Shown: piece after piece, positions 14,672-45,842 of the stretch
Numbering within the stretch: the first letter of the stretch is position 1
How the letters are laid out: every line of letters begins with the position of its first letter
Source of the DNA: Arthrobacter sp. PGP41
Lineage (GTDB): Bacteria; Actinomycetota; Actinomycetes; Actinomycetales; Micrococcaceae
NCBI RefSeq assembly: GCF_002953935.1
Contig: NZ_CP026514.1
Span: forward strand, 2,418,001-2,482,000
DNA: 64,000 nucleotides
Direction of reading: 5' to 3'
Translations under genes and position numbers: made by a program
Notes under the pieces: model-generated
The model's database searches: none
Told to the model about the DNA's origin: nothing
What the model saw: the letters and a program-made list of their open reading frames with translations, nothing else

Positions 14672-14714
14672 ATGACCTTTGGCCCTATACCTCCTGCAGG
14701 CACCGGGCAAGTCT
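14672..14714 (+). promoter_or_regulatory. DevR/DosR-like box and -10, promoter of universal stress gene 1
   Basis: Box ATGACCTTTGGCCC at 14672-14685. A weak -10 (AAGTCT, 14709-14714) sits at the same spacing from the box as in the other promoters, predicting a start near 14722 and a leader of about 34 bases. See the regulon finding. Confidence 0.65.
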
Positions 14715-14755
14715 TGAACTGGACCCCGCCCCAGAAGAAAACAGGAAGCCCGGCC

Positions 14756-15622
14756 ATGACAACCCGTAAACCCATCGCAGTGGCCACCAACGACTCCCCG
14801 CAGAGCCAGGCGGCTGTGCTCTGGGCTGCCCGGCGGGCTGAACGCTCGGGCCTGCCGCTGGTGATCCTCCACGTCGTGGACGACCGGTGGATGGCTGAAC
14901 CGTATCCGTGGATCGGCGTTCTCGAGGAGGCGGGCGACAAGCTCCTGCAGACTGCCGCCGGACGTATCCGGGGAACCTTCCCCATCAGCGTTACCACCCG
15001 GCTCCTCACCGGAAGCGTGGGCGGCTCGCTGGCGAAGTACTCCGGCAAAGCATCCATGGTGGTTGTAGGCTCGGGCACCGGGCTCGACGGCGGATCCCTT
15101 GCAGACCGGGCGCTGCAGGTTGCGGCTTCTTCAAAGGTTCCCGTTGCCGTGGTGGGTACCCGGGAGCTCGGGGGCCGGTCCGGCGTGGTGGTGGGCGTCG
15201 ACGGCTCCAAGGAAGCCACCCAGGCTGTGGCCTTCGCCGCCGCCGAGGCTGACCGGGAGGGGGACGACCTCACTGTGGTCTATGCCATCAATGCGCCGGA
15301 CCGTGTTACCGATGCGGGCCTGCTGACCACCAGCCTGGCCGACCTTTTCACCGAGGAAGAACGCATCGTCCTGTCCGAAACAGTGGCAGGGCTCAATGAG
15401 GACTATCCAAGCCTGCGCGTGAACCGGGTGCTGGAGACCGAGAGGGGACCGGTGGAATCGTTGGTTGATGCTGCTTCCGGGGCCAGAATGCTCGTAGTGG
15501 GCAGCCGTGGGAGGAGCGGAATCAAACGGCTTCTTCTCGGTTCCACAGCCCATGGCGTCCTCAAGCACCTGCCGTGTCCCACCGTGATTACCCGGATCCA
15601 GGCACTCAAGAACAAAACCTAG
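14756..15622 (+). CDS. Universal stress protein, tandem UspA domains
   Basis: 288 residues, two Usp domains. Domain 1 (about 6-145) has a degenerate nucleotide loop (VVGSGTGLDGGS). Domain 2 (about 150-285) begins GVVVGVDGS and carries the ATP-binding pattern G-x2-G-x9-GS in VVGSRGRSGIKRLLLGSTAH. Tandem Usp proteins of mycobacteria bind ATP and belong to the DosR dormancy regulon. The ATG at 14756 follows AGGAAG. It is the first gene of the island, preceded by a DevR-like box, and is 63 bases from a membrane-protein gene likely in the same transcript. Confidence 0.93.
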   Translation: MTTRKPIAVATNDSPQSQAAVLWAARRAERSGLPLVILHVVDDRWMAEPYPWIGVLEEAGDKLLQTAAGRIRGTFPISVTTRLLTGSVGGSLAKYSGKASMVVVGSGTGLDGGSLADRALQVAASSKVPVAVVGTRELGGRSGVVVGVDGSKEATQAVAFAAAEADREGDDLTVVYAINAPDRVTDAGLLTTSLADLFTEEERIVLSETVAGLNEDYPSLRVNRVLETERGPVESLVDAASGARMLVVGSRGRSGIKRLLLGSTAHGVLKHLPCPTVITRIQALKNKT

Positions 15623-15685
15623 GCGGTGCCGGCTTCCCGCGCCCCCGCACAATCTGTCCCATTCCCTACGTTCCGGGTTGGCATC

Positions 15686-17269
15686 ATGAAAAAGACCGCT
15701 GCAGTAGCCATGCTCATCCTCGGGATCCTCATCTCCATCGTTGGGGCCGCCGTCCTGGCCGCAGGAGCCGTGGCATCAGTGGTTGGATCCGCCCAGGGCG
15801 ACGGATACCTCACCACACGCACGGAACGCCTTTCCGTTGGATCCCATGCACTGACCTCGCCCAGGCTCGATGCGGTAGGAGAGGGCGTTCCGCCACGTCT
15901 TCCTTTCGACGTCGGTACGCTCAGGCTGCGTGCCTCTTCCCTGGACCCCGCCAAGGAAATCTTCATAGGCGTCGCCCCGCAGGCCGACGTCGAGCAATAC
16001 CTCTCGGGCGTCCATCGCTCGGAGCTGCTCAAAGTCGACAGCCGACCCTTCCGGGCCGAATTCCGCGACATTCCCGGCACCAGCACCCCCGCACCCCCGG
16101 GAGAACAAACATTCTGGAGCGCCTCCGCCTCCGGGCCCGGCCAACAGGATCTCACGTGGGAACTTGCCGCCGGCAATTGGGCCATCGTCATCATGAACGC
16201 CGATGCCAGCCCCGGGATCAATGCCGAAGTGCAGGCCGGCTTTCGCTCCGACCTGATCCGGCCGGCGGCAACCGGGCTGCTGGTGGGAGGTGCCGTTGCG
16301 CTGGCAATCGGGATTCCCTTGCTAATCCTGGGAGCCGTCGGGCTTGGCCGGCACACAGGACCGCATTCCGGCGGTTCTCCCGCGCCGCCATCCGGGCCAT
16401 CCCCCGGATATGCGCCGCCCCCCGGATATGCGCCACCACCCGGATATGCGGGCGGAGCGCCCGGCACGGCGGGAGACCCCGGAAATCCCGGCTCACCGGT
16501 AACCCCGCCCCTGCAACAGCCCGGTCAAGGCGACCGGGCCGACCGTGCACCCTACCCGGCCCGGCTCTTCGGCGACCTTGACCCGGCCTTGTCGCGGGCA
16601 ATGTGGCTGGTCAAGTGGTTCCTTGCCATCCCGCATTTCGTCGTGCTGTTTTTCCTGTGGTTTGCGTTGGTCGTGACCACGATCGTGGCCTGGTTCGCGA
16701 TCCTGTTTACCGGCCGCTATCCCCGGTCCCTGTTTGACTTCAACGTGGGCGTCCTGCGCTGGAACTGGAGGGTGGCTTTTTATGCTTATGCCGCTGCAGG
16801 AACGGACCTCTACCCGCCGTTCACCCTGGCACGCACCAATTATCCGGCCGACTTCGAGGTGGACTACCCGGAACGCCTCTCCCGCGGGCTGGTCCTGGTC
16901 AAGTCGTGGCTCCTCGCCATCCCGCATCTGCTCATCGTTGCAGCCTTCTCCGGCCCCACCTGGACCTGGCAGGCGGAGACCGATGATGTGGGAACCACCT
17001 ATCAACGGAGCGTAGGCCTGTCGCTGCTGGGCCTGCTGGTCCTGGTTGCAGTAGTGGCCCTGCTCTTTACCGGCCGCTACCAGCCTCCGCTGTTCGACCT
17101 GATACTCGGCATCAACCGATGGATCTACCGCGTCGTGGCCTACGCGGCCCTGATGCGGGACGAATACCCTCCGTTCCGGTTGGACCAGGGAGCCCGTGAA
17201 GTACCGCCGCCCTTGGCGGGACCGCCGTACCACGCAGCAGCCCGCCCCTCGGGTGATGGCCTGCATTGA
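15686..17269 (+). CDS. DUF4389-domain membrane protein with Pro-Gly-Tyr repeat linker
   Basis: 527 residues. An N-terminal membrane helix (about 1-30), an extracytoplasmic beta-rich region (about 35-190), a second helix (about 195-220), a linker with three tandem PPGYA units, then a DUF4389 region with two similar halves. Each half contains a W-F/L-AIPH motif, helices and an LFTGRYP/Q-LFDxxxG signature. Function unknown. Start chosen at the ATG MKKTAAV because it begins the helix; the frame above is non-hydrophobic. Probably co-transcribed with the Usp gene upstream. Confidence 0.82.
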   Translation: MKKTAAVAMLILGILISIVGAAVLAAGAVASVVGSAQGDGYLTTRTERLSVGSHALTSPRLDAVGEGVPPRLPFDVGTLRLRASSLDPAKEIFIGVAPQADVEQYLSGVHRSELLKVDSRPFRAEFRDIPGTSTPAPPGEQTFWSASASGPGQQDLTWELAAGNWAIVIMNADASPGINAEVQAGFRSDLIRPAATGLLVGGAVALAIGIPLLILGAVGLGRHTGPHSGGSPAPPSGPSPGYAPPPGYAPPPGYAGGAPGTAGDPGNPGSPVTPPLQQPGQGDRADRAPYPARLFGDLDPALSRAMWLVKWFLAIPHFVVLFFLWFALVVTTIVAWFAILFTGRYPRSLFDFNVGVLRWNWRVAFYAYAAAGTDLYPPFTLARTNYPADFEVDYPERLSRGLVLVKSWLLAIPHLLIVAAFSGPTWTWQAETDDVGTTYQRSVGLSLLGLLVLVAVVALLFTGRYQPPLFDLILGINRWIYRVVAYAALMRDEYPPFRLDQGAREVPPPLAGPPYHAAARPSGDGLH

Positions 17270-17380: not shown

Positions 17381-17719
17381 ATGGCGGTCATCGAGCAGGT
17401 ACGCGAAGGAATGCACGTCGTAGCGTCGGACGGGAAGAAGGTCGGCAAGGTCAAGGACCTGAAAATGGGTGATCCGGAGGCTGTGACCTCTGACGGCCAG
17501 ACCGACCCTGAAACGGGGGGCCTCGTCAATACGTCGGTGGATGGGTTTGCCGCGGAGTCAAGGCTGCCCCACCACGCCGCAGAGAGGCTGCTGCGGATCG
17601 GCTATGTGAAAGTAGACAGGTCCGGCTTGTTGGCGGGTCACGCCTACTTCGCATCGGATGAGCTGGACCGGGTCGAGGGCGATACGTTGTGGCTGAAAGA
17701 GGGCCGGCACACTGATTAG
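17381..17719 (+). CDS. PRC-barrel/DUF2171-like small protein
   Basis: 112 residues. The N-terminus, VREGMHVVASDGKKVGKVKD, is the strand-turn pattern of PRC-barrel or DUF2171 domains; the middle is a polar insert and the end has YFASDELDRVEGDTLWLK. PRC-barrels bind proteins or RNA and are common in stress-induced small proteins. GAGGGAGAAGG precedes the ATG. Located between the Usp-DUF4389 pair and the second Usp gene. Confidence 0.7.
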   Translation: MAVIEQVREGMHVVASDGKKVGKVKDLKMGDPEAVTSDGQTDPETGGLVNTSVDGFAAESRLPHHAAERLLRIGYVKVDRSGLLAGHAYFASDELDRVEGDTLWLKEGRHTD

Positions 17720-17755
17720 CATGGGCCTTCCCACTCCTCGGCGCCGCCGCCTGCA

Positions 17756-17799
17756 GTGACTTTCGGCCCTACCTTTGCGGGAACCCGCCGGGACACGAT
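17756..17799 (+). promoter_or_regulatory. DevR/DosR-like box and -10, promoter of universal stress gene 2
   Basis: Box GTGACTTTCGGCCC at 17756-17769, a near-consensus copy. CACGAT at 17794-17799 fits the shared -10 pattern at the shared spacing; predicted start about 17806, leader 31 bases with its own ribosome site. Drives Usp, deacetylase and ATPase genes downstream. Confidence 0.75.
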
Positions 17800-17836: not shown

Positions 17837-18295
17837 ATGAACACTTCCGGAGCACCGTTCGCACGGATACTTGTTGGGGTCGACGGATCGGAGGCTTCCA
17901 TTGAAGCCCTGCGGCAGGCCCAGCGGCTGGCGGTACCCCTCGGGGCGAAGGTCCTGGCCAACGCCTACTGGGATTATCCGCAGGTCTACACGGGCTACGT
18001 GATGATGGGCATTGAGGGCTTCGAAGAACGCGCCGGGGAAATCCTGGCTGAGGCCGTCAAAACCGCCTTCGGTGACGAAACGCCGTCGAACGTCATTTCC
18101 ACCCTGGTCCGCGGCCATCCGCGGGAATCACTGATCGACGCCAGCCGCGACGCGGACATGGTCGTGGTGGGGAGGCGCGGCCACGGCGGTTTTGGCGGGC
18201 TGCTGCTGGGCTCAGTCAGTTCCGCCCTGGTGGCCCATGCCCATTGTCCCGTGCTGGTGGTCCACACACCGGAAAACCGCACGGCGTCGTCCTAG
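17837..18295 (+). CDS. Universal stress protein, single domain
   Basis: 152 residues. RILVGVDGSEASIEALRQA opens the fold and VVGRRGHGGFGGLLLGSVSS supplies the complete ATP-binding pattern (G-x2-G-x9-GS). The segment VMMGIEGFEERAGE is shared with the minus-strand Usp at 22935. Cytosolic, probably an ATP-binding regulator in stress. Start ATG 17837 behind GAGGAGCTGAG. It heads a likely three-gene transcript with the deacetylase (39-base gap) and the calcium-type ATPase. Confidence 0.93.
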   Translation: MNTSGAPFARILVGVDGSEASIEALRQAQRLAVPLGAKVLANAYWDYPQVYTGYVMMGIEGFEERAGEILAEAVKTAFGDETPSNVISTLVRGHPRESLIDASRDADMVVVGRRGHGGFGGLLLGSVSSALVAHAHCPVLVVHTPENRTASS

Positions 18296-18334: not shown

Positions 18335-19333
18335 TTGACAACAGTGCTGCAGGGCGGACGACGGCGGGTGGCGGCCGTGGCAGCCGCCCTCGCCCTGCTG
18401 GCCCTCGCCATAGTCCTGGCCCTCTTGCTGACGGCGCCGGCGGGTGGCCCGCCGGCGGCAGGGCCCTCAGGCTCTGCGGGCCCCTCCGCAAGCCCGGAAG
18501 CGTCAAGCCCCACCCCCAGCCCCGACGCATCGAGCGGGTCTCCCCCGGCGGCACAGCCTGCGGACGCCTCGACGGAGACACCCGAGGCCGGCCAAAATCC
18601 CGTCCAGCCGCCGGTAACCGTACCGCCCGTCCCTGCTGCCCCGCCGTCCGAACCAGTTGCCAGCCCTGGTCCGGTTCCGCCCGCAGCGCCGTTCCCGGCC
18701 TCGCTCCGCAAACAGGACCTCACGGTCATCCCTGGCGCCGGGCAGGTCGTGGCGCTGACTTTCGACGCGGGAGCCAACGCTGCGGGGCTGCCGAAAATCC
18801 TCTCCACCCTGTCCGCAAAAGGGGTTGCCGCCACGTTCTTCCTGACCGGGAACTGGGCGGATGCCAACCCCGGCGGGGCGGGGCAGATCGTTTCCGCCGG
18901 GCACCGGGTAGCCAACCACTCCATGACCCATCCCGGTTTCATCGGCCTCTCCGGCACTGAGATTACCCAGCAGGTGCGCGGGGCGGAACAGGCCATCCTG
19001 GCCGCCGGCGCCGACCCGACGCCGCTGTTCCGCTTTCCCTTCGGGGAACGCGATGCCCGGACCATTGCGGCTGTCAACGACCTGGGCTATGTTGCAGTCC
19101 GGTGGACTGTGGACACCCTCGGCTGGAAAGGCACCAGCGGCGGGATTAATACGCAGATTGTTGCCGACCGCACACTGGCGGGGCTGCAGCCGGGCGAAAT
19201 CGTCCTGATGCACATCGGCTCCAACCCCAACGACGGCACTACCCTGGACGCCGATGCCCTGCCGCAGATCATCGACCGGATCAGAGCCGCGGGGTATGGC
19301 TTCGTCACCCTCGACGCGCTGCTGGCCCCGTAG
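18335..19333 (+). CDS. Membrane-anchored or secreted polysaccharide deacetylase (CE4/NodB)
   Basis: 332 residues. A membrane helix (about 11-34) is followed by a long Pro/Ser/Ala linker (about 36-125) and a NodB domain: motif 1 TFDAGAN, motif 2 NHSMTHPG, motif 3 RFPFGERD, motif 4 VRWTVDTLGWKG, motif 5 VLMHIG. Motif 1 keeps the first Asp, but the second, a metal ligand in TFDDG, is Ala. It should act on peptidoglycan or another N-acetylated glycan outside the cell. The start is TTG 18335 or GTG 18344. Between Usp and ATPase in one run. Confidence 0.85.
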   Translation: MTTVLQGGRRRVAAVAAALALLALAIVLALLLTAPAGGPPAAGPSGSAGPSASPEASSPTPSPDASSGSPPAAQPADASTETPEAGQNPVQPPVTVPPVPAAPPSEPVASPGPVPPAAPFPASLRKQDLTVIPGAGQVVALTFDAGANAAGLPKILSTLSAKGVAATFFLTGNWADANPGGAGQIVSAGHRVANHSMTHPGFIGLSGTEITQQVRGAEQAILAAGADPTPLFRFPFGERDARTIAAVNDLGYVAVRWTVDTLGWKGTSGGINTQIVADRTLAGLQPGEIVLMHIGSNPNDGTTLDADALPQIIDRIRAAGYGFVTLDALLAP

Positions 19334-19351: not shown

Positions 19352-22144
19352 ATGGCTAAGGCCCGGCAGCCAGGATCCGGCGGCAGAAAGTCCGGTCCGG
19401 CCGCGAACGGTACGCTTGACCGGGCCCACCACGGCCTTCCCTTGCACGAGGTGGTCCTCCTGCTTGAAACAGACCACGTGCGGGGGCTCGCTTCCGCGGA
19501 GGTGGCCCGCCGGCAGGAACAGTTCGGAGCCAATGTCCTGCCGCGCTCACGGGGAGCGGGAATTCTCCGGAAACTGGCGCGGCAGTTCAACAACCCGCTG
19601 GTTTACGTCCTGCTGGCTGCGGCCGCCGTCACTCTCGCCCTGGGCGAGTACCTGGACTCGGGCGTCATCCTCGCCGTCGTCCTGGTGAACACGGCGATCG
19701 GCTTCGTCCAGGAAGTGCGGGCCGAGGCAGCCTTGGACGCGCTCCACTCCCTCGTCCGTACGCGCGCGGTGGTGACCAGGGGCGGGCAGAGGCAGGAGGT
19801 GCCCTCAGAGGACCTCGTCCCCGGCGACCTCGTCCTGCTCGAAGCCGGCGACAAAGTGCCGGCGGACCTCCGGCTGGTCAGGTTGTCCGGCCTGCGCGCG
19901 GATGAGTCAGCACTGACGGGAGAATCCGACGCCGTCGCCAAGGACGAGGTAGTACTGCCCCCGACCACCCCCGTCGCGGACCGCCGGAACATGGTCTACA
20001 GCGGCACCCTGGTGACCGCGGGCAGCGGGGCAGGCGTCGTCGTCGCAATCGGCGGCGAAACAGAACTCGGCGAGATCCATCGGCTCATGGGTGCGGTGCA
20101 GCCGGTGGCCACACCGCTGACCCAAAAACTGGCACGCTTCAGCATGACCCTGACGGTGGCCATCCTTGCCCTGGCCGCCGTGGCTTTCCTCGCCGGCGTG
20201 GCACGCGGCCAGGAGCCCGCGCAGATGTTCACCGCCGCCGTCGCACTGGCTGTGGGGGCGATTCCCGAAGGCCTGCCGGCAGCGGTCACTGTAACCCTTG
20301 CCATCGGTGTCCGCCGCATGGCCCGGCGCCGCGCCGTGGTACGGCGTTTGCCGGTGGTTGAGACATTAGGCAGCACCACCGTCATCTGCTCGGACAAGAC
20401 CGGCACCTTCACGGAAAACCAGATGACGGTGCGTGCGCTTTGGACACCGTCCGCGCGGTACGAGGTGACAGGCTCCGGTTACGGCCCGGAGGGGCATGTC
20501 CTTCGCACCGGGGCCGCCATCCGGGAGGCCGGAGCCGCCGGCCGGACGACGGCCGCGGCGCAGGACGAGGGCCTGTACTGGTCCCTCCTGGCGGGAGGCG
20601 CCTGCAATGACGCCAGGATCATCCGGGAGGGACAGCACTGGCAGGCCCGGGGGGACCCCACGGAGGCGGCCATGGTGGTGGCGGCGGTGAAGGGCGGCGT
20701 GGACGCCGGCGAGTTCCTTTCCTCGCATCCGCGGACCGGCACGCTGCCCTTCGCCTCCGAGCACCAATACATGGCAACCCTCCACACCTCCGCCGTGCCG
20801 GACGGCAGCGGCAAGGACTCGGGCATCGTGCTGGTCAAGGGCGCGGTGGAACGCGTGCTGGAGCTGTGCGCGGCGCAGATGGACCACCAGGGCCGCGCCA
20901 TTCCGCTGGCCCGGCAGCCGGTGCTCGATGAGGCCCACCGGTTCGCCGCCACCGGCCTGAGGGTTCTTGCCACGGCGATGATGCGCCTTCCTGCCGGGGA
21001 CGCCCTGGCCGAGTCAAGCCTGCACGGGCAGCTGACACTGACCGGGCTGCAGGCCATGTTCGATCCGCCGCGGGAGGGCGCGGCGGCATCGGTGCGGGCC
21101 TGCCGCCAGGCGGGCGTGGCAGTGAAAATGATCACCGGAGACCATGTGGGAACAGCCTCCACCATTGCCAGGGCAGTGGGCCTGACCGCGGACGGGGCGG
21201 ACGGAAAGGCATTGACCGGGACTGAACTTGACGCGATACCCGCGGACGGACTGCCCGAGGCCGTCGAGCGGGCTACGGTCTTCGCGCGGGTGTCCCCCGA
21301 ACAGAAGCTTCGCCTGGTCGGCGCCCTGCAGTCCCGGGGAAACGTCGTCGCCATGACAGGTGACGGGGTCAACGACGCACCGGCCCTGAGGCAGGCGAAC
21401 GTGGGCATAGCCATGGGCCGCTCCGGGACGGAAGTGGCCAAGGAGGCCTCGGACATCGTCCTCACCGACGACGACTTTGCCACCATTGAGGCTGCCGTCG
21501 AGGAGGGCCGGAACGTCTTCGACAACCTGACCAAGTTCATCGTCTGGACCCTGCCCACGAACATGGGGGAAGGCCTGGTGATCCTGGTGGCAATTTTGAT
21601 CGGGGCAACGCTCCCCGTCCTGCCCACCCAGATCCTGTGGATCAACATGACCACCGCTGTGGCCCTGGGGCTGATGCTTGCCTTCGAGCCGAAGGAACCC
21701 GGCCTTATGTCCCGCCCGCCCCGGGCCCCCGGCCGTCCGCTCCTGACCTGGACACTCATCCTTCGGATCCTGCTGGTCTCCACCCTCCTCGTGGCGGGCA
21801 CCTGGTGGATCTTCGAACTCGAGCTCGCAGGCGGCGCGTCCCTCGCAGAGGCCCGAACGGCGGCCGTCAACCTTTTTGTTGCCGTGGAACTGTTCTACCT
21901 GTTCAGCTGCCGTTCCCTCACCCGGTCAGTCTGGCGGATCGGCTTCTTCAGCAACCGCTGGGTCATCCTTGGTGTCCTGGTCCAAGCGGCCGGCCAACTG
22001 GCCATCACGTACCTGCCGCTGATGAACGAGCTTTTCCATACGGCCCCGATCACGGCAGAAGCCTGGCTGCGCATCCTGGGCATCGCACTGCTCGCGTCCC
22101 TGGTTGTGGCAGTGGAAAAGCGCTTCCGGCGCAGTGAGTTCTAG
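19352..22144 (+). CDS. P2A-type cation-transporting ATPase (calcium-type, CtpF-like)
   Basis: 930 residues. TGES at 189-192, the M4 motif PEGL at 305-308, phosphorylation motif DKTGTFTENQM with Asp348, TGDGVNDAPALR hinge and a C-terminal cation-ATPase membrane bundle ending in a VEKRFRR tail. This is the SERCA/PMCA-like branch that moves Ca or other divalent cations. Mycobacterial CtpF of this type is a DosR regulon member, which fits the location. The ATG at 19352 follows AAGGAAGG, 18 bases after the deacetylase stop. Confidence 0.92.
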   Translation: MAKARQPGSGGRKSGPAANGTLDRAHHGLPLHEVVLLLETDHVRGLASAEVARRQEQFGANVLPRSRGAGILRKLARQFNNPLVYVLLAAAAVTLALGEYLDSGVILAVVLVNTAIGFVQEVRAEAALDALHSLVRTRAVVTRGGQRQEVPSEDLVPGDLVLLEAGDKVPADLRLVRLSGLRADESALTGESDAVAKDEVVLPPTTPVADRRNMVYSGTLVTAGSGAGVVVAIGGETELGEIHRLMGAVQPVATPLTQKLARFSMTLTVAILALAAVAFLAGVARGQEPAQMFTAAVALAVGAIPEGLPAAVTVTLAIGVRRMARRRAVVRRLPVVETLGSTTVICSDKTGTFTENQMTVRALWTPSARYEVTGSGYGPEGHVLRTGAAIREAGAAGRTTAAAQDEGLYWSLLAGGACNDARIIREGQHWQARGDPTEAAMVVAAVKGGVDAGEFLSSHPRTGTLPFASEHQYMATLHTSAVPDGSGKDSGIVLVKGAVERVLELCAAQMDHQGRAIPLARQPVLDEAHRFAATGLRVLATAMMRLPAGDALAESSLHGQLTLTGLQAMFDPPREGAAASVRACRQAGVAVKMITGDHVGTASTIARAVGLTADGADGKALTGTELDAIPADGLPEAVERATVFARVSPEQKLRLVGALQSRGNVVAMTGDGVNDAPALRQANVGIAMGRSGTEVAKEASDIVLTDDDFATIEAAVEEGRNVFDNLTKFIVWTLPTNMGEGLVILVAILIGATLPVLPTQILWINMTTAVALGLMLAFEPKEPGLMSRPPRAPGRPLLTWTLILRILLVSTLLVAGTWWIFELELAGGASLAEARTAAVNLFVAVELFYLFSCRSLTRSVWRIGFFSNRWVILGVLVQAAGQLAITYLPLMNELFHTAPITAEAWLRILGIALLASLVVAVEKRFRRSEF

Positions 22145-23417: not shown

Positions 23418-23449
23418 GATGCGGGCTCCATTCTCTTTGGCATGCTCCA

Positions 23450-23493
23450 AGACTGGACAAGGTGCGGGCCTGCGGGATAGGGCCCAAAGTCAC
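23450..23493 (-). promoter_or_regulatory. DevR/DosR-like box and -10, promoter of minus-strand universal stress gene
   Basis: Minus-strand box GTGACTTTGGGCCC (23493-23480) with CAGTCT (23455-23450) at the shared spacing. Predicted start near 23443 and leader of about 26 bases. Confidence 0.72.
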
Positions 23494-39180: not shown

Positions 39181-39187
39181 ATCCACC

Positions 39188-39230
39188 ACGTTCCCTACTG
39201 GTGCAGGCCGTGGGAAGGGCCGAAGGTCAC
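39188..39230 (-). promoter_or_regulatory. DevR/DosR-like box upstream of Usp-ATPase operon
   Basis: Minus-strand box GTGACCTTCGGCCC (39230-39217), centred 43.5 bases before the ATG at 39180. The -10 at the expected place is weak (GAACGT, 39193-39188). The TGA inside the box is the stop codon of the upstream P1B ATPase, so the element is embedded at the end of a coding region. Confidence 0.65.
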
Positions 39231-41224
39231 GCCGCCCTTTGCGCTATCAGCCTCGGCCATGGGCTTTTCGGTTTAGGTCCGTGCAGCGCCCTTAGCCCGT
39301 TCAAGATCGTGGCCAGGTCCACGAGTTCCTGCAGCAGGGCTCCGGTGACGGCCGGGATGTACCCGGTCATGGCAACAGCCATGAGCCCGATGCTGAGGCC
39401 GATTCCTGTCCAGATACTCACCAAGGCAACAGCTACGGTGCGCTTCCCGATGTCGACTGCCGCTGCAACTTTGGACAGGTCGTCCAGCATGATCACGACA
39501 TCCGCCGACTCACTCGCGGCTGTAGCGCCTTTGGCTCCCATGGCTATCCCGACGTCCGCCGCCGCGAGCACAGGGGCGTCATTGACGCCGTCGCCCACCA
39601 TCAGCACCGGACGCTCGCGCACGCGGGCCACCGCGTTGACCTTGTCCTCGGGGAGGCAGTCGGCCTGCACGTGCCGGATGCCTGCCTCCTCGGCAATGTG
39701 CGCCGCGGTCCCCCGGGCATCACCGGTCAGCAGCATGGTGTGCCGGATTCCCAGGCGGTGCAGCCGGGCAAGCGTCTCACCCGCGTCGGCGCGCAGCGGG
39801 TCCTTCATGATGAGGGCGCCTGCGTAGGTGCCATTGACACCCACGTAGACCGCCAGTTGGCCGCTGCGCAGGACGGCTTCCCGGAAGCCCGTGGATGAAC
39901 TCCTGACCAATCCCGCTTTTCCCACCACCACCTTGTCCCCGCCGCAGAGGGCTTCCACGCCCTGGGTGGCATGTTCCGTGGCCTGGGAAACCGGCAGAAG
40001 GTCAAGGCCGCGCAGGGCGGCAGCCTCTATGACGGAGGCCGCCAGGACATGGGAAGAGTATTGCTCAGCCGAAGCGGCGAGCTGCAGGATCCGGGCAGGA
40101 TTCATCGGCCCGCCCTCCTCCCCTCCCGGTGCAGCCTGGACCGTGTCCAGGACGGGGCGTCCGGATGTCAGCGTCCCTGTCTTGTCGAACACCGCGGTCC
40201 TGGCCTTGGCCAGCTGCTCGAGGGTCCCGCTGTTCTTGATGATGATGCCCTTGTGGGCGGCCTGGCTGGTACCGGCCAGGAAGGCCACCGGCGCGGCGAT
40301 CAGGAGCGGGCACGGAGTTGCCACCACCAGGACCTGGGCGATCCGCACGGGATCCCCTGAAAGGAGCCACGCGGTTGCGGCCATGAGGACCGCGAGCGCG
40401 GTAAACGGTACGGCGTAGCGGTCCGCCAGGCGGACCACCGGGGCACGGCTGGACGCCGCCTCCTCCACCAGGGCGATGATGCGGCTGTACTGTGAATCGC
40501 CTGCGGTGGCGGAGGCCCGCATCCTGATGGCCGACTCGCCGTTGACGGAGCCGCTGAGCAGGAGGTCGCCCCGGACCCGCTCCACCGGCAGGCTCTCGCC
40601 CGTCAGTGAGGACTCATCCATGCTGGCAGCAGTGGACAGGAGCTCCCCGTCCACGGGGACCAGCTCGGAGGGGCGCACCACCAGCACGTCCCCCGGTACC
40701 ACCTCGCCAACCGGAATGTCCTCGAGAACCGATCCGGTGGCCTCCCGGTGCGCGGATTGGGGAGCCCTGTCCAGCAGGGACCTCAGTTCGCGCACAGCGC
40801 GCCCCTGGGCGAAGCTTTCCAGTGCTTCCCCGCCCGAAAGCATGAGGATAACAACCAGCGCGGCGAGATACTCGCCAACCCACACGGTGCTGGCGATGGC
40901 CATCAGCGCAAGAACGTCGATTCCCCAGCGGCCCTCCCGCAGGGACCGGAACATTGACACTGCACGGCCTGCGGCGACGACGGCGGCATAGGCTGACGCA
41001 CCGAGCCGGGCCGGCTGCTCCAGGCCGGACTGCAGCAGCACCGCCGTCACAGCGAGCATCAAGCACGTCAGTGCCACAAGCGGGTACAGCCGGATAAACC
41101 CGATGCCCCTGCCCGCCGGGGACGTGCGGGGCTCCTCGGGGTCCGTCGCCTGCCGAAACCGCAGCGACATGCCGGGCGCGGCGGCCGGCGTTCCCTCAGG
41201 CAAGACCCGCCCGCGCCGGGTCAT
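39227..41224 (-). CDS. P1B-type heavy-metal-translocating ATPase
   Basis: 665 residues. No N-terminal metal-binding (HMA) domain. TGES at 208-211, membrane metal motif TPC (303-305, in VVATPCPLLIAAP) where CPC is usual, DKTGTLTSGRP with Asp347 and GDGVNDAPVLAAADVGIAMG. The TPC form leaves ion specificity open. ATG 41224 follows GGTGGAG inside the 3' end of PPOX gene 2 (29-base overlap); Met at 41170 is an alternative. Likely co-transcribed with that PPOX gene. Confidence 0.9.
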   Translation of the reverse strand: MTRRGRVLPEGTPAAAPGMSLRFRQATDPEEPRTSPAGRGIGFIRLYPLVALTCLMLAVTAVLLQSGLEQPARLGASAYAAVVAAGRAVSMFRSLREGRWGIDVLALMAIASTVWVGEYLAALVVILMLSGGEALESFAQGRAVRELRSLLDRAPQSAHREATGSVLEDIPVGEVVPGDVLVVRPSELVPVDGELLSTAASMDESSLTGESLPVERVRGDLLLSGSVNGESAIRMRASATAGDSQYSRIIALVEEAASSRAPVVRLADRYAVPFTALAVLMAATAWLLSGDPVRIAQVLVVATPCPLLIAAPVAFLAGTSQAAHKGIIIKNSGTLEQLAKARTAVFDKTGTLTSGRPVLDTVQAAPGGEEGGPMNPARILQLAASAEQYSSHVLAASVIEAAALRGLDLLPVSQATEHATQGVEALCGGDKVVVGKAGLVRSSSTGFREAVLRSGQLAVYVGVNGTYAGALIMKDPLRADAGETLARLHRLGIRHTMLLTGDARGTAAHIAEEAGIRHVQADCLPEDKVNAVARVRERPVLMVGDGVNDAPVLAAADVGIAMGAKGATAASESADVVIMLDDLSKVAAAVDIGKRTVAVALVSIWTGIGLSIGLMAVAMTGYIPAVTGALLQELVDLATILNGLRALHGPKPKSPWPRLIAQRAA

Positions 41225-41672
41225 CCAGGTGGCTCCACCACGTCAGCGGTGAGGTGATCTTGAAGCGCCGGCCGGTCACCGCCGTCGGAGTAATCCGCAC
41301 GAAGTAGTCCTTGTGCCCGGCCTGCCAGGGAAAAAGGGTGAGGCCAACGCCAGTCATCAGGTCCGGGGACGGTTCAAGGACCTCCGCGTGACCCTTCACC
41401 TCGACGCTCCACGCGGTCCGCGTTCCCTGGCCGGTGCCGTCGGCTTCCAGGGCGACGGCGGCGGGCCCGGCGGCCGCGTGAAGTTTCGTTCCTTCTCCGG
41501 TGCGGAAGACCACCGATTCATGGTCCACCTTATAGTTCACGGGGAAGATTTCCGGATGGCCGTCCACCAGCACGGCGAGGTGGCCAACCGAAACCGTACG
41601 CAGGAGGTCCCAGCAGGCACTGGCACCAAGGTCCTCGACTGATGCGGCATCCCGTTCCGAGTTGTTGCGCAT
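41196..41672 (-). CDS. PPOX-like flavin-fold protein 2
   Basis: 158 residues. SACWDLLRTVSVGHLAVLVD, PEIFPVNYKVDHESVVFRTG, EGTKLHAA, AWSVEVKGHAEVL and VRITPTAVTGRRFKI are shared almost block for block with the paralogues at 26325 and 42346. Cofactor unknown. It heads a minus-strand pair with the P1B ATPase and diverges from the flavodoxin gene across a 141-base region that carries two DevR-like boxes, one for each direction. Confidence 0.87.
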   Translation of the reverse strand: MRNNSERDAASVEDLGASACWDLLRTVSVGHLAVLVDGHPEIFPVNYKVDHESVVFRTGEGTKLHAAAGPAAVALEADGTGQGTRTAWSVEVKGHAEVLEPSPDLMTGVGLTLFPWQAGHKDYFVRITPTAVTGRRFKITSPLTWWSHLDDPARAGLA

Positions 41673-41679: not shown

Positions 41680-41722
41680 AAAGTAATGCCTCCGGGCCGG
41701 CTGCACTAGGGCATTTAGGCTC
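41680..41722 (-). promoter_or_regulatory. DevR/DosR-like box and -10 of a leaderless promoter (PPOX gene 2)
   Basis: Box GGGCATTTAGGCTC (plus-strand reading, 41709-41722) is diverged but is centred exactly 43.5 bases before the ATG at 41672. TACTTT (41685-41680, minus strand) ends seven bases before the ATG. A second partial copy, GGGACCCACAGGCCCT, lies at 41740-41725 on the minus strand. Confidence 0.55.
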
Positions 41723-41763
41723 TAAGGGCCTGTGGGTCCCCGGCAGGTGCCTCCAGCCCGGTC

Positions 41764-41806
41764 ATGACTTTCGGCCCTGTCCGGCGGGCTCTGCTTCCCC
41801 CACGCT
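41764..41806 (+). promoter_or_regulatory. DevR/DosR-like box and -10 of a leaderless promoter (flavodoxin gene 1)
   Basis: Box ATGACTTTCGGCCC at 41764-41777, centred 43.5 bases before the ATG at 41814; CACGCT at 41801-41806 ends seven bases before it. Confidence 0.72.
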
Positions 41807-41813
41807 GGAAGGC

Positions 41814-42278
41814 ATGAAAACTCTTGTCGTCTATGACTCCGCCTACGGCAACACCAAGACAATCGCCGAAGCCCTGGCATCGGGCCTGGGCCGCAAGGCT
41901 GCTGCTGTTCCCGTGGACCGTTTCGACGCCGGCTCGCTCAAGTCCGGAGATCTCCTGGTGGTTGGCAGTCCCATCAATGGCTGGCGCCCGACGCCCAAAA
42001 TCACCCAGGCGCTCGCCGACCTTGCGGCCCGCGGACTTGCAGGGGTAAGGGCGGCAGCTTTCGACACCCGGCTCAAGCTGTTCATCCACGGGGACGCGGC
42101 CAAGAAGATGAGCCGGGCGCTGAAGGACGCCGGCGCCAGCATTGTCGCCAGCCCCATGGCCTTTTACGTCAAAGGCAGTGAGGGGCCCCTCCTTAAAGGG
42201 GAGGTTGACCGGGCAGTTGCATGGGCCGAAAAGCTTCGCGCCGGCCTGAAGGACAGGGGCAGCCTGGGGGACGCCTGA
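41814..42278 (+). CDS. Flavodoxin-domain protein 1
   Basis: 154 residues. VVYDSAYGNTKTIAEALASG is the FMN phosphate loop (normally T/S-x-T-G-N-T), VVGSPINGWRPTPKI the 50s/60s loop, and AAAFDTRLK follows. Single-domain flavodoxins shuttle electrons or form quinone reductases; FMN binding is likely, partner unknown. No cysteine cluster. The next gene, a PPOX protein, also has its own box, so both are induced together but from separate promoters. Confidence 0.88.
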   Translation: MKTLVVYDSAYGNTKTIAEALASGLGRKAAAVPVDRFDAGSLKSGDLLVVGSPINGWRPTPKITQALADLAARGLAGVRAAAFDTRLKLFIHGDAAKKMSRALKDAGASIVASPMAFYVKGSEGPLLKGEVDRAVAWAEKLRAGLKDRGSLGDA

Positions 42279-42295
42279 ACTCCCGGACAGGTCAA

Positions 42296-42339
42296 AGGTC
42301 TTTGGGCCCTGTCAGGGGCTTTGGCCAGCGCCGTAGGAT
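42296..42339 (+). promoter_or_regulatory. DevR/DosR-like box and -10 of a leaderless promoter (PPOX gene 3)
   Basis: Box AGGTCTTTGGGCCC at 42296-42309, centred 43.5 bases before the ATG; TAGGAT at 42334-42339 ends six bases before the ATG. No ribosome site. Confidence 0.72.
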
Positions 42340-42345
42340 CTGGGC

Positions 42346-42816
42346 ATGACCGAAAAGAACATGGTGCCTGAGGCAGAAATCCTCGACTCCGGCGAATGCT
42401 GGAAATTGCTGGGACACACGAGTGTGGGAAGGCTTGGCGTCATCGTTGACGGCCAGCCCGACGTCTTCCCGGTGAGCTTCAAAGTTGACGGCGAGGGCCT
42501 TGTTTTCCGGACGGGCAGCGGAACAAAGCTGCAGGCCATTGAAGCCAACTCTATGGTTGCCCTGGAAGCGGACAGCGTGAGCGCCGAGTTTGGCCTGGCC
42601 TGGAGCGTTGTGGTCAAGGGCAGGGCGGTCGAGGACGATGCTGCAGGGCCGGCCCTGAACGAGACGCGACGGGGGCTTTTTCCCTGGCAGGGTGTAGGCC
42701 AGGACCACCTGATCCGTATTGTTCCCCAGTCGGTGACGGGCAGGAGGTTCACCCTGTCCGCCTCGGGTACCTGGCGCACCCCGCTGGACGAAGCCACCCG
42801 CGCGGGCTTTGAGTAG
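42346..42816 (+). CDS. PPOX-like flavin-fold protein 3
   Basis: 156 residues. GECWKLLGHTSVGRLGVIVD, PDVFPVSFKVDGEGLVFRTG, SGTKLQAI, LAWSVVVKGRAVE and LIRIVPQSVTGRRFTL align with the two other PPOX-like paralogues of the island. Cofactor unknown. Its stop sits at the very beginning of a DUF5655-like reading frame (see 42915), so it may share a transcript with it. Confidence 0.87.
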   Translation: MTEKNMVPEAEILDSGECWKLLGHTSVGRLGVIVDGQPDVFPVSFKVDGEGLVFRTGSGTKLQAIEANSMVALEADSVSAEFGLAWSVVVKGRAVEDDAAGPALNETRRGLFPWQGVGQDHLIRIVPQSVTGRRFTLSASGTWRTPLDEATRAGFE

Positions 42817-42914
42817 CCACGGTCTCTTCCCCCGGCGACGGCGAACCATGGACCCTCGACCGCTTCTTTGAAGGTTCCGCCACGGCGTACGACATCTACC
42901 GTGCGGCAGAGCAC

Positions 42915-43202
42915 ATGGCGTCCGGCCTGGGACCCCTGGAGGTCCGGGTTTCCAAGAGCCAGGTTTCGTTCCGCCGCCGGCGCAGCTTCGCGTTTGTTTG
43001 GCGTCCCGGCTCCTACGTCAAGTCCTCCGTTCCCGCCGTCTTGTCGCTGGCGCTCCCGTACCAGTCGGCGTCGCCGCGGTTCAAGCAAATCGCCCATCCC
43101 TCCGCGGGAATCTGGATGCACCACCTCGAGCTTCCGGACAGCACCCAACTGGACGCCGAGGTGCAGGAATGGATGCGTGAAGCCTATGAAGCTGCCGGGT
43201 AG
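42915..43202 (+). CDS. DUF5655-like protein, true start unclear
   Basis: 95 residues from ATG 42915, ending EVQEWMREAYEAAG. The middle (VRVSKSQVSFRRRRSFAFVW) fits DUF5655-type proteins. The same frame is open back to 42813 and reads EPWTLDRFFEGSATAYDIYR, which looks like the missing N-terminus of this family, yet that stretch contains no ATG, GTG or TTG and starts right at the PPOX stop. Translation may begin at a non-standard codon, by reinitiation, or the copy may be damaged. Confidence 0.55.
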   Translation: MASGLGPLEVRVSKSQVSFRRRRSFAFVWRPGSYVKSSVPAVLSLALPYQSASPRFKQIAHPSAGIWMHHLELPDSTQLDAEVQEWMREAYEAAG

Positions 43203-43226
43203 GGCCGGCACGGCCTGCACCTTTTA

Positions 43227-43269
43227 GAGTCCTTGGGCCCTGTGAGGCCGGCAGCCCCCGGCGCAGGCT
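43227..43269 (+). promoter_or_regulatory. DevR/DosR-like box and -10 of a leaderless promoter (GyrI-like gene)
   Basis: Box GAGTCCTTGGGCCC at 43227-43240, centred 43.5 bases before the ATG; CAGGCT at 43264-43269 ends seven bases before it. Confidence 0.7.
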
Positions 43270-43276
43270 GAATGCC

Positions 43277-43747
43277 ATGAACAACTCTGCCCAGCACCCC
43301 GGGAAAGTTCACCTCACCGAGCAGGCTGTCGCTGTCGTCCGCGAACGGGTCCCCATGGCCTCGCTCACTGAATTCTTCGGCCGTGCCTTCGGTACGGTCA
43401 TGGCCGCGGTCCGGAATCAGGGTGCCAGCCCTGCAGGACCGCCTTTTGCGCTCTACCGGGGAATGCCAGCCGAGACGGTTGACGTGGAAGCCGGCTTCCC
43501 CATCGCAGGCAACTTCACGGAGGCCGACGGGGTGGCGACCGGGACGTTGCCTGAGACGGATGCCCTTGAAGCCCTCCACATCGGTCCGTACGACACCCTG
43601 GAAAACACCTACGGCGCGATCCTGGGGCGAATGGAAGCTGAAGGCTTCACCCCGTCGGACACCATGTGGGAGTACTACCTGAGCGACCCGGAAGCGGAAC
43701 CCGACCCCGCGAAGTGGCAGACAAGGGTTGTCTGGCCCATCGCGTAA
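43277..43747 (+). CDS. GyrI-like small-molecule-binding domain protein
   Basis: 156 residues. The double strand-helix pattern of GyrI/AraC-effector domains: LTEQAVAVVRERVPMASLTE, FFGRAFGTVMAAVRNQG, PPFALYRGMP, VDVEAGFPIAG, the LEALHIGPYDTLENTYGAI block and TMWEYYLSDPE. Family members bind hydrophobic or cationic compounds or inhibit gyrase; here it is a stand-alone domain without DNA-binding part. A flavodoxin gene follows after 33 bases. Confidence 0.82.
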   Translation: MNNSAQHPGKVHLTEQAVAVVRERVPMASLTEFFGRAFGTVMAAVRNQGASPAGPPFALYRGMPAETVDVEAGFPIAGNFTEADGVATGTLPETDALEALHIGPYDTLENTYGAILGRMEAEGFTPSDTMWEYYLSDPEAEPDPAKWQTRVVWPIA

Positions 43748-43780
43748 GTAGTGCACAGCAACCATCACAGGAGGTTCGCC

Positions 43781-44345
43781 ATGAAGGTTCTGGTTGCGTA
43801 CGCCAGCAGGCACGGCTCCACCGCCGGAATAGCCGAACGTATCGCTGCCCGCATCACTGAAGACGGGATCGAGGCCGAGGCCCGGCCCGTGGCAGAAGTG
43901 GATGACGTGGGCCAGTATGAAGCCGTGGTGCTGGGCAGCGCCGCCTACTTGGTCCACTGGCTTAAGGAGGCCACAACTTTCGCCAAGCGGCACCGGCGGG
44001 AGCTCCAGGACAAAAAAAGTATGGCTTTTCAGCAGCGGCCCCCTTGGAAACGAGACCGTTGACAAGGACGGTGAGGACATCTTGAACAGCGCCAGGCCCA
44101 AGCAGTTCACCGAACTGCAGGAACTGCTCCGGCCCAGCGGAGAACAGGTCTTCTTCGGCGCGTGGGACCCGGATTCCCCGCCCATCGGCATCGGTGAGCG
44201 CCTCATCCGGCTCGCGCCGGCAGCGAAGGAAGCCCTGCCGGCAGGCGATTTCCGGGATTGGGACGCCATCGACGCCTGGGCAGACGGGATCGCCGCCGAC
44301 CTGAAATCCTGTGGCGGCCCGAACCCGGACGGCCGGTCAGGGTAA
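43781..44345 (+). pseudogene. Flavodoxin-domain protein 2, frame interrupted at an A7 run
   Basis: Frame 1 from ATG 43781 (behind CACAGGAGG) reads KVLVAYASRHGSTAGIAERI and continues to RHRRELQDKK; the coding sense then moves to the next frame as VWLFSSGPLGNE through LPAGDFRDWDAIDAWADGIA. The switch falls on seven A at 44012-44018; six A would keep one frame. The joined product is a normal flavodoxin/protoporphyrinogen oxidase HemG-like protein of about 180 residues. The cause could be a real mutation, an assembly error, or +1 frameshifting/transcript slippage on the A run. Without correction the product stops at 44062. Confidence 0.8.
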
Positions 44346-44394
44346 GCGGCCACGCCTGATGTACAGTCCGCGGTTCCGCCCGGGCGACCCCTGC

Positions 44395-44904
44395 CTATCC
44401 GCCGGCCGGGCGGCCGGCCGTGCTCCCGCCGTCGTCCGTGCCTGCATCTTCCCCCAGCAGGGGCGCGCCGGGCGGCAATAGACCGGGTTGAAGCACGCCG
44501 GGCCTGGAGAGCATGGCCCGGAGTTCCTCCAGCAACTCAAGCTGCCGGCTGTTGATTGCCATCAGCCGGTCGATCTCTGACTTCGACTGCACGTCCGTCT
44601 CGTAGTCATGGCGGGCCATGGCCGCCGCAATTGCGTCCTGGCGCTTGGCGGCAATCAACAGGATGGCGCCCTGGAGCCCGGCCAGCATGGAAAGGAAGAG
44701 GTTGAGGAGGATGTAGGGATAGGGGTCCCACGCGTCCGATGCCAGGACATAGGAATTGTACGCGGCCCATGCCGCCATGAAGGCGACGAACAGCCCCACG
44801 AAAGTCCAGCTGCCCATGCCGTTGCGGAGGACGTCGGCCGCCCGCTCGCCCCGGCTTAGGCCCTCCTTGTGCCGCGCGTGCCACGTACTTCTTCGCTCGC
44901 TCAT
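44395..44904 (-). CDS. DUF1003 membrane protein
   Basis: 169 residues. Basic N-terminus, then two membrane helices (about 31-50 and 63-85) with the DUF1003 pattern GMGSWTFVGLFVAFMAAWAA and DPYPYILLNLFLSMLAGLQG, followed by a QDAIAAAMARHDYETDVQSK helix and a Pro/Gly tail. Function unknown, common in stress-related clusters. Tail to tail with the broken flavodoxin gene; no terminator stem was seen in the 49-base gap. Confidence 0.9.
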   Translation of the reverse strand: MSERRSTWHARHKEGLSRGERAADVLRNGMGSWTFVGLFVAFMAAWAAYNSYVLASDAWDPYPYILLNLFLSMLAGLQGAILLIAAKRQDAIAAAMARHDYETDVQSKSEIDRLMAINSRQLELLEELRAMLSRPGVLQPGLLPPGAPLLGEDAGTDDGGSTAGRPAGG

Positions 44905-44934
44905 GTGCCTGGGGTCTGTGCCGGCCGGCGTGGC

Positions 44935-45705
44935 TCAGATGGCGTTCCAGCCGTTGTCAGAGGCAAGCACCACGCCGTTGATGTTCGATCCGTCCCGGCT
45001 GAGCAGGAAAGTGATTCCGGCGGCGACCTCCCCCGCTTCAGCGATGGGCGGTACGTTCACCTGCATGAACGGACCGAGGACTCCAGCTGCGAGGTCGGAC
45101 TTGAATTCGGCATGGATGTTGGTCCTGGTGCCGCCGGGGGCGACCGCATTGACGCGGATGCCCCGGCGCCCGTACATGACGGCAGAGCTGCGGGTCAGGC
45201 CAATGACGGCGTGCTTTGAAACGGTGTACGCAGCACCGGCTGCGGACCCCCGCAGGCCCGCCTCGGATGAAACATTCACGATCGAGCCGGACCCCGCAGC
45301 CAGCATGACGGGCACTGCCGCCCTCATAAGGCGCATCATTGACGTCAGATTGACATTGAGGACGCGGTCCCAGGTAGCGTCGTCGACCTCATGCACAGGC
45401 TGGAAGCTGTCCATGATCCCGGCCACGTTGGCCAGTGCGTCGATGCGCCCGCCGGCAGCAGCCACCACGCCCTGCACCACGTCCTCTTTGCTGACGTCGC
45501 CGGCCACGGGTACGAAGCCCAGTTCCGCGTAGTCCGCTACGAGCTTGTCCAGGCCCTCCGCGCTGAGGTCGCTGGCAATGACCCGCCCGCCTTCCCGGGC
45601 AACACGCAGCGCGGTGGCAAGCCCAATGCCGGAAGCGGCGCCTGTGACGATGACGGTCTGGCCCTCGAACCGGTTTGGACTGATGATTTCCTGCCAGACG
45701 GCCAT
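44935..45705 (-). CDS. Short-chain dehydrogenase/reductase
   Basis: 256 residues, classical SDR. TGAASGIGLATAL is the cofactor loop, ASDLSAEG places an Asp after strand 2 (NAD preference), NVAGIM, the catalytic Ser in IVNVSSEAG, and YTVSK supplies Tyr and Lys. Substrate unknown. ATG 45705 follows GAGGAG. The box at 45842-45829, with a -10 at the shared spacing on this strand, suggests that this gene rather than the divergent Usp gene is its DevR-type target, with a leader of about 87 bases. Confidence 0.9.
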   Translation of the reverse strand: MAVWQEIISPNRFEGQTVIVTGAASGIGLATALRVAREGGRVIASDLSAEGLDKLVADYAELGFVPVAGDVSKEDVVQGVVAAAGGRIDALANVAGIMDSFQPVHEVDDATWDRVLNVNLTSMMRLMRAAVPVMLAAGSGSIVNVSSEAGLRGSAAGAAYTVSKHAVIGLTRSSAVMYGRRGIRVNAVAPGGTRTNIHAEFKSDLAAGVLGPFMQVNVPPIAEAGEVAAGITFLLSRDGSNINGVVLASDNGWNAI

Positions 45706-45799
45706 GCCATGCTCCTCATCTCAGATAACATTCTTGCTTCCGCCAACTGGGGGTGCTCTGCTGGAATAGGCAGATATACATACAGCGGCCCACCCCCTC

Positions 45800-45842
45800 A
45801 GCATGGAGTCTCACAAGGAGCCACCACAGGGCCGAAAGTCCC
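45800..45842 (-). promoter_or_regulatory. DevR/DosR-like box between SDR and universal stress genes
   Basis: Minus-strand box GGGACTTTCGGCCC (45842-45829), the copy closest to the mycobacterial consensus. CATGCT (45805-45800) gives the shared spacing toward the SDR gene. Toward the Usp gene (ATG 45864) the box is too near to act from -43. Confidence 0.6.

Follow-up and report, generated by a model that had tools for sequence, protein, structure and literature searches.

In Streptomyces coelicolor, osdR and osdK form an operon, and eight predicted OsdR sites control 20 of the 22 genes of SCO0198–0219, a region that contains 8 of the 11 usp genes (PMC5069765). Developmental genes are affected in this system, and binding of OsdR was also reported at ssgB and whiE genes, where no consensus is obvious (PMC5069765). 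We analyzed a 64,000-nucleotide stretch of Arthrobacter sp. PGP41 (the window), positions 2418001–2482000 of a one-contig genome of 4.27 Mb. Within it, 31 kb (14671–45843) contain a DevR-like regulator gene (devR), a DosT-like sensor gene (devS), and some two dozen genes for stress and metabolism, the majority behind predicted DevR boxes (Table 1). We consider it very probable from the sequence that this island is a hypoxia regulon of the DevR/OsdR type, gathered in one place in a Pseudarthrobacter-like soil bacterium and working by the mechanism proposed below.

The locus resembles the OsdR/OsdK system in having a DevR/DosT-type pair amid genes for universal stress proteins (Usp), a phosphoenolpyruvate (PEP)-utilizing dikinase, alcohol dehydrogenase (ADH), and PPOX proteins, and in its 16-bp box, its predicted site before the regulator gene, and its core targets around the regulator (PMC5069765). 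Like the clustered core regulon of OsdR, it has its genes close together, with six usp genes and 11 boxes in 31 kb. An earlier interpretation made from the letters alone (the sequence-only reading) had set this clustering of sensor, regulator, and regulon against the scattered DosR targets of M. tuberculosis; clustering is not new, being already known from S. coelicolor (PMC5069765). The two systems also differ. The osdR and osdK genes form an operon, whereas devR and devS are convergent; the predicted OsdR targets include nitrate reductase and nitroreductase, whereas neither Pfam family was matched among the island proteins scanned; and the 43 predicted OsdR sites precede 27 units at several places (PMC5069765), whereas strict motif matches outside our island look background-like.

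The predicted targets appear to resemble those of OsdR more than those of mycobacterial DosR. The mycobacterial DosR/DevR system shares with the window its regulator, DosT-type sensor residues, and Usp, Hsp20, and P-type ATPase targets. The phosphofructokinase (PFK) of the M. tuberculosis regulon is PfkB, whereas that of the window is of the PfkA type (TIGR02483), and the nitroreductase of the mycobacterial system has no match among the island proteins scanned. In M. avium, the hypoxia-induced genes lie in seven places and dosRS is an operon, in contrast to the single island and convergent pair found here (PMC11876180). The sequence-only reading had called the regulon complete and its target classes classical. 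Those terms are not supported as they stand: they mix two regulons, in that the PEP-utilizing dikinase, ADH, and PPOX are OsdR-type targets (PMC5069765), the PFK is of the PfkA type, and the reductases had no match among the proteins scanned. The Micrococcaceae version looks like a new member of the known OsdR/DosR kind, with its own wiring and, judged by the strict motif, a confined regulon. Among the matches listed for Arthrobacter with DosR, DevR, or DosT in the openly licensed literature, no title dealt with such a system.

Regulator and sensor

Genes were called with Pfam and NCBIfam profiles, and PDB sequence matches were used for DevR, DevS, PPOX1, and GH65. DevR consists of a receiver and a LuxR-type DNA-binding domain and is identical to M. 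tuberculosis DevR at 106 of 203 aligned residues (52%), which is also its nearest relative among solved proteins (3c3w, 213 bits, followed by VraR with 134 and NarL with 104). Residues Asp8, Asp9, Asp54, Thr82, Lys104, Lys179, Lys182, and Asn183 are all retained; we take these, in numbering as well as in role, to be the phosphorylation and DNA-contact residues of DevR. When phosphorylated, the protein would probably bind the predicted boxes.

The GAF domain of DevS matches DosT with 179 bits and DevS chains with 172–176 bits, whereas other GAF proteins among the matches listed reach at most 27 bits. His136 and Tyr158, the counterparts of DevS His149 and Tyr171, are both retained; presumably the histidine is the proximal heme ligand and the tyrosine a heme-pocket residue. 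Gly74 stands at the position of DevS Glu87, as in DosT. Our best guess is that the protein is a DosT-like O2 sensor with predicted heme binding, and the conserved residues suggest that the island responds to O2, NO, CO, or redox state. Pfam finds a single GAF domain, about 170 residues before HisKA_3; full-length matches to actinobacterial devS genes span this interval, and its length makes a second GAF domain, as in DevS, likely. DevS also has both kinase domains, HisKA_3 and HATPase_c. The DevR-like regulator and the DevS/DosT-like, heme-type sensor, which the sequence-only reading had proposed, were borne out.

Because LuxR-type regulators share domains, and VraR and NarL structures also match DevR, the boxes might serve another regulator of the NarL/VraR kind and the sensor another cue, the likeness to DevRS being at the family level only. 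The bit scores of both proteins make this very improbable, as do the two further DevR matches in the same genome (E 1e-20), which are only 38% and 32% identical.

Other sensor genes were encountered in relatives. A short DevS-like protein occurs beside the full DevS in Arthrobacter sp. NtRootA1 (L123:9983-11311) and in G079, G066, G039, and G072. It has a GAF domain with an NHPPM heme motif and HisKA_3 with the phospho-acceptor His, followed by a stop, with no HATPase domain; the sequence was read for L123 and G079 and scanned with Pfam for L123, and the other three are known from match extent alone. The G072 copy has an internal TGA. This protein is possibly a kinase-dead partner or decoy. 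A second devS copy, 63% identical to that of the window, is present in three genomes (G001:C1:1182053-1183717, G029:C1:2283356-2285014, and G069:C1:1005785-1007446), each time with two matches to the 14-mer described below within about 8 kb; in the named records with the second type (L116, L117, L120, and L121), a devR-like gene lies beside it in convergent orientation. Ten metagenome records (L149–L158), nine of Chloroflexota type and one from Armatimonadota, match the DosT-like part of the sensor with 39–52% identity.

Boxes and promoter spacing

Boxes were searched with a first matrix made from the 25 distinct OsdR 16-mers in Table 1 of PMC5069765, which are predictions, some of them tested there by electrophoretic mobility shift assay. 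Five upstream boxes (45828, 17755, 39216, 26275, and 23479) ranked within its top 21 hits for the window and precede usp6, usp2, usp5, PPOX1, and usp3, respectively; the other 16 hits were not upstream boxes, and the second and third best (8517 and 7228) lie outside the island. A genus matrix was then seeded with the five boxes and refined on the upstream regions of 12 syntenic relatives. It gave 11 sites of 17–22 bits, all within 14671–45843, and the next best site in the 64 kb scored 12.9. At 14 bits or more, the reversed matrix found 0 sites versus 11 in 40 kb of the window, and 0–3 versus 1–17 in 20 other regions. The 14-mer DGWCYTTNKKCCCT, which was drawn from these sites and is therefore an in-sample measure, has 10 matches in the window versus 0.10 expected and 2 in the highest shuffle. 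The core of the window boxes agrees with the M. smegmatis consensus GGGACTTNNGNCCCT (PMC6448022).

Three candidates were discarded. The palindrome GGGAC-N4-GTCCC (GGGACNNNNGTCCC) had 67 hits versus 82 expected, which is below chance; the plain mycobacterial consensus was too little enriched to suffice as a box definition; and a site at 14082, with 11.1 bits and 10 bp from the start of the SHOCT gene, was rejected as its promoter box.

The core ANNNT is found at −10 in 79% of M. smegmatis promoters (PMC6448022). It played no part in defining our boxes. Its first base lies 23 or 24 bases past each of the 11 window boxes, past 147 of the 151 distinct boxes that the 13 syntenic genomes contain when the window is counted in, and past 36 of 43 boxes of eight genomes left out of the matrix; other pairs of offsets reach at most 2, 22, and 7, respectively. 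The stricter [TC]ANNNT at 21–23 is found in 7/11, 90/151, and 23/43. The boxes thus look like working promoters, as a prediction. Leaderless messages are suggested for four genes (PPOX1, PPOX3, flavodoxin 1, and GyrI-like), whose start codons lie 34–35 bases past the box and 6–7 past the −10 core.

From box orientation, the predicted units are (1) usp1-DUF4389, (2) usp2-deacetylase-ATPase, (3) usp3, (4) devR, (5) PPOX1-usp4(-ADH), (6) hsp20, (7) usp5-ATPase-PEP synthase-GH65-PFK, (8) flavodoxin 1, (9) PPOX3-DUF5655, (10) GyrI-like-flavodoxin 2, and (11) SDR-DUF1003 (SDR, short-chain dehydrogenase); the extents of the operons are suggested by spacing. A weak twelfth box at 36091, before PEP synthase, has the same ANNNT spacing by eye, and together with the 11 strong boxes it gives the twelve sites counted by the sequence-only reading. 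Box 45828, whose centre is 28 bp before the usp6 start, is oriented in reverse to usp6 and points to the SDR gene.

The stress cluster might be only partly under DevRS, with the rest constitutive or otherwise regulated. No oriented strong box was found for devS, the glyoxalase gene, the heavy-metal ATPase-PPOX2 pair, or usp6. Four relatives (G069, G064, G021, and G040) possess an additional P-type ATPase gene, as well as a DevR box 70–73 bp before ADH; both are missing at window positions 27705–27780, and for this reason ADH may depend here on the PPOX1 box. The promoter spacing of all 11 strong boxes, and their conservation along with the genes in the syntenic relatives, nevertheless make partial control somewhat unlikely; it is also compatible with a DevR/OsdR-type island.

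Arrangement of devR and devS

A devR-devS operon like those of Mycobacterium and Streptomyces was not found in the window, where the two genes are convergent and 17 bp separate their stop codons. The same convergence occurs in all 20 genus regions fetched, in three Sinomonas records, and in Gordonia effusa. Seven Rhodococcus/Rhodococcoides records have devR followed by devS on one strand, and in a Streptomyces record (L129) regulator and sensor share a strand and are separated by a PPOX gene. Arthrobacter sp. PsM3 (L119), with the more distant devS copy, has weak co-directional regulator matches.

An oriented box of at least 14 bits precedes devR in the window and in 11 of the 12 syntenic relatives, and in the twelfth (G052) this box scores 13.8 bits. 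No box points at devS in the window or in any of the 20 fetched regions; in 17 of the 20, a box lies upstream of devS and points away from it. Because there is a box before devR and none toward devS, feedback in this lineage should increase DevR but not DevS.

Confinement and conservation

In the Arthrobacter sp. PGP41 genome, the 14-mer matches 16 times, and 10 of these matches fall in an island that makes up 0.73% of the genome (binomial 3e-18, in-sample, since the motif was taken from these sites). The reversed-pattern control gave 11 matches, more than the six found outside the island, and none of these six is followed by the −10 core. By this measure, the strict regulon appears to extend no further than the island. 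DevR may also act at weak or non-consensus sites elsewhere, as OsdR reportedly does at the ssgB and whiE genes (PMC5069765), and the genome-wide test consisted of one strict 14-mer, which neither the hsp20 box nor the weak site at 36091 fits. The background-like outside matches speak against such a spread, to which we give a little less than even weight and which would itself be compatible with a DevR/OsdR-type island.

Ten genomes without devRS had 1–13 matches to the 14-mer (median 4) and never more than 2 within 40 kb, which is further evidence against service to another LuxR-type regulator. The same search in six genomes with devRS gave 12–19 matches; in a six-genome test of 14-mer counts, five genomes had 16–18 and G079 had 8.

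Gene order was compared across relatives, as the sequence-only reading had proposed. Of the 20 relatives fetched, 12 share the order usp1-DUF4389-usp2-usp3-devR-devS-PPOX1-usp4-PEP synthase-ATPase-usp5-heavy-metal ATPase, and these 12 are the ones called syntenic. ADH, PFK, GH65, deacetylase, Ca-type ATPase, or Hsp20 is absent from some of them. The gene set is rearranged in G042, G076, and G079, and devRS occurs with few of the genes in G047, G067, G109, G018, and G020. At E 1e-60, devS was found in 90 of 121 genus genomes and was missing from 31; of 17 devS-less genomes examined, 16 gave no hit for devR at E 1e-40, and the single hit, in G086, is 42% identical. In a survey of the family, devR (E 1e-60) was patchy, being present in 23 of 80 genomes and 14 of 32 genera. 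The flanking genes were found at E 1e-80 in 9 of 13 genomes (SelO, left) and 8 of 13 (ABC binding-protein gene, right), and both occurred together in none of the four devRS-less genomes examined, so that no empty site was seen.

The window DevS shares 91% identity with its counterpart in Pseudarthrobacter sp. GA104 and 83–86% with those of P. polychromogenes, P. siccitolerans, and P. chlorophenolicus Mor30.16, and it groups with Pseudarthrobacter in the devS tree. We did not interpret the deeper order of this tree, because it flags long branches.

Several results weigh against an OsdR-type island with this box and this wiring. When 2 mismatches are allowed, enrichment of the plain mycobacterial consensus in the window is only weak (14 versus 9.1 expected, the 14 being reached by 6 of 100 shuffles), and GGGACTWWWGTCCC is not enriched (3 versus 1.7). 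The −10 offset was picked after the box listing had been viewed, and its check is the recurrence of the same offset in the untrained genomes. Of the 8 genomes that do not belong to the 12 syntenic relatives, 2 alone have an oriented 14-bit box before devR. G079 has devRS, but its 8 matches to the 14-mer, 4 of them in the devRS region, are fewer than the 12 of the control. G022 is without devRS at the thresholds used, yet it has 13 scattered matches, a point in favor of another LuxR-type regulator. Related genomes are in general not independent. The Usp-domain count speaks in favor of such an island, with a median of 18.5 in 18 devS genomes versus 10 in 17 without, in sets that were not blind (the devS-positive genomes were those already fetched) and from which kinship was not removed.

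Gene content of the island

The island features are listed in Table 1. The target classes around devRS are Usp (six genes), three P-type ATPases, Hsp20, three PPOX proteins, two flavodoxins, ADH, PEP synthase, PFK, and a HAD-GH65 fusion; the classes named by the sequence-only reading are all present in the 31 kb. The six usp genes account for 9 of the 17 Usp-domain matches of the genome. The CtpF/PacL-like ATPase has a 66% homologue near devS in a Mycobacteriaceae record (L139). The GH65 part matches a trehalose-6-phosphate hydrolase structure (9lb6) with 421 bits, followed by kojibiose phosphorylase with 290.

Three gene starts given earlier were revised. The usp1 start at 14672 was rejected because that ATG falls inside the box, and the start was moved to 14756; PEP synthase starts near 36055; and PFK starts near 30416, the idea of an extra N-terminal domain being dropped because family matches begin only at residues 127–130 of the long open reading frame (ORF). 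Long minus-strand ORFs at 41715–44353 were rejected as genes, since plus-strand genes with Pfam matches (flavodoxin, PPOX, DUF5655, GyrI-like, and HemG-like) lie there. Flavodoxin 2 is in two frames in the window and in a single frame in G064, G069, and G040; the split probably reflects a decayed gene or a sequencing error. Outside the island, 12359–13714 encodes a distant adenylate-forming enzyme (F390 synthetase/PaaK-like, below cut-offs) that adjoins the SHOCT protein.

Table 1. Genes and predicted DevR boxes of the island (window positions)
Feature	Positions	Strand	Basis
DevR box, usp1-DUF4389	14671-14686	+	22.0 bits; ANNNT +23
usp1, tandem Usp	14756-15622	+	PF00582, two stretches; in-frame ATG 14756
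DUF4389 membrane protein	15626-17269	+	PF14333
DUF2171-like protein	17381-17719	+	PF09939, 23.4 bits, under cut-off 25
DevR box, usp2-deacetylase-P-type ATPase	17755-17770	+	22.0 bits; ANNNT +24
usp2	17837-18295	+	PF00582
Polysaccharide deacetylase	18335-19333	+	PF01522
CtpF/PacL-like P2-type ATPase	19352-22144	+	E1-E2, Cation_ATPase N and C; TIGR01522 below its cut-off
Glyoxalase-like protein, without strong box	22407-22844	+	PF00903
usp3	22935-23450	-	PF00582
DevR box, usp3	23479-23494	-	21.0 bits; ANNNT +24
DevR box, devR (predicted autoregulation)	23577-23592	+	17.4 bits; ANNNT +23
devR, response regulator	23691-24374	+	213 bits to M. tuberculosis DevR 3c3w
devS, DosT-like sensor kinase	24392-26074	-	GAF, HisKA_3, HATPase_c (Pfam); 179 bits to DosT 2vzw
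DevR box, PPOX1-usp4(-ADH), away from devS	26275-26290	+	17.4 bits; ANNNT +23
PPOX1, FMN-binding split-barrel type	26325-26786	+	PF12900; PDB 6eci
usp4, tandem	26832-27704	+	PF00582, two stretches
Zinc ADH	27781-28836	+	TIGR02822 above cut-off
DevR box, hsp20	28803-28818	+	17.0 bits; ANNNT +23
Hsp20/alpha-crystallin protein	28898-29320	+	PF00011
6-Phosphofructokinase, PfkA mixed type	29391-30416	-	TIGR02483 above cut-off, begins at residue 129 of long ORF
HAD (beta-phosphoglucomutase-like)-GH65 fusion	30413-33598	-	best PDB 9lb6
PEP synthase	33641-36055	-	NF005057, TIGR01418 above cut-off; start read from sequence
Weak DevR-like box, PEP synthase	36091-36106	-	10.1 bits on this strand; ANNNT +24 by eye
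P2-type cation ATPase	36164-38779	-	profile matches
usp5, first gene of usp5-ATPase-PEP synthase-GH65-PFK	38719-39189	-	PF00582
DevR box, usp5 gene run	39216-39231	-	21.7 bits; ANNNT +23
P1B heavy-metal (cadmium-type) ATPase	39227-41224	-	TIGR01525, TIGR01512 above cut-off
PPOX2	41196-41672	-	PF12900
DevR box, flavodoxin 1	41763-41778	+	22.3 bits; ANNNT +23
Flavodoxin 1	41814-42278	+	PF00258
DevR box, PPOX3-DUF5655	42295-42310	+	19.5 bits; ANNNT +24
PPOX3	42346-42816	+	PF12900
DUF5655 protein	42813-43205	+	PF18899
DevR box, GyrI-like and flavodoxin 2	43226-43241	+	17.6 bits; ANNNT +23
GyrI-like protein	43277-43747	+	PF06445
Flavodoxin 2, HemG-like, two reading frames	43751-44345	+	PF12724; NF008316 39.7 bits, below cut-off 142
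DUF1003 protein	44395-44904	-	PF06210
SDR	44935-45705	-	PF00106
DevR box, SDR-DUF1003, not usp6	45828-45843	-	20.6 bits; ANNNT +23 leftwards
usp6, tandem	45864-46727	+	PF00582, two stretches

Proposed mechanism and significance

What the computation shows is homology, key residues, boxes, their spacing, conservation, and co-occurrence. From these we propose the following mechanism, in which the signal and its transfer by phosphorylation, the binding of heme and of DNA, the operon extents, and the metabolic roles are inferred. The DosT-like sensor would bind heme, and loss of bound O2 or binding of NO or CO would turn its kinase on. The active kinase would phosphorylate DevR, and DevR~P would bind the NGTGACYTTNGGCCCT-like 16-bp boxes, 23–24 bases downstream of which the ANNNT core of a sigma-70-type −10 element begins. 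From this −35 position, it would activate about 11 transcription units, including devR and excluding devS. Usp and Hsp20 would then protect and slow the cell, P-type ATPases would move cations, and flavodoxins, PPOX proteins, and ADH would handle redox. The HAD-GH65 protein, PFK, and PEP synthase may feed in stored sugar at little cost in ATP: we hypothesize that GH65, as a phosphorylase or a trehalose-phosphate enzyme, feeds glycolysis from reserve sugar and spares ATP.

Tentatively, a more far-reaching version can be considered, which is possible but which we do not favor at present. In Pseudarthrobacter, the entire direct DevR regulon would be a self-contained 31-kb island with one grammar (box, 22–23 bp, NANNNT), in which some units are apparently leaderless and the regulator has positive feedback that the convergent sensor lacks. 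Because only the regulator is under this feedback, the kinase-to-regulator ratio would fall as the response builds. The island would then be a natural dormancy module in a single locus, open to deletion or transfer as one piece.

With the whole hypoxia-dormancy circuit in one locus, the regulon could be deleted, mutated, or transplanted in one step, and such manipulation would probe how the Usp, ATPase, and PPOX proteins contribute to survival. With its sensor convergent and uncoupled, the locus would provide a test of how feedback wiring shapes the response.

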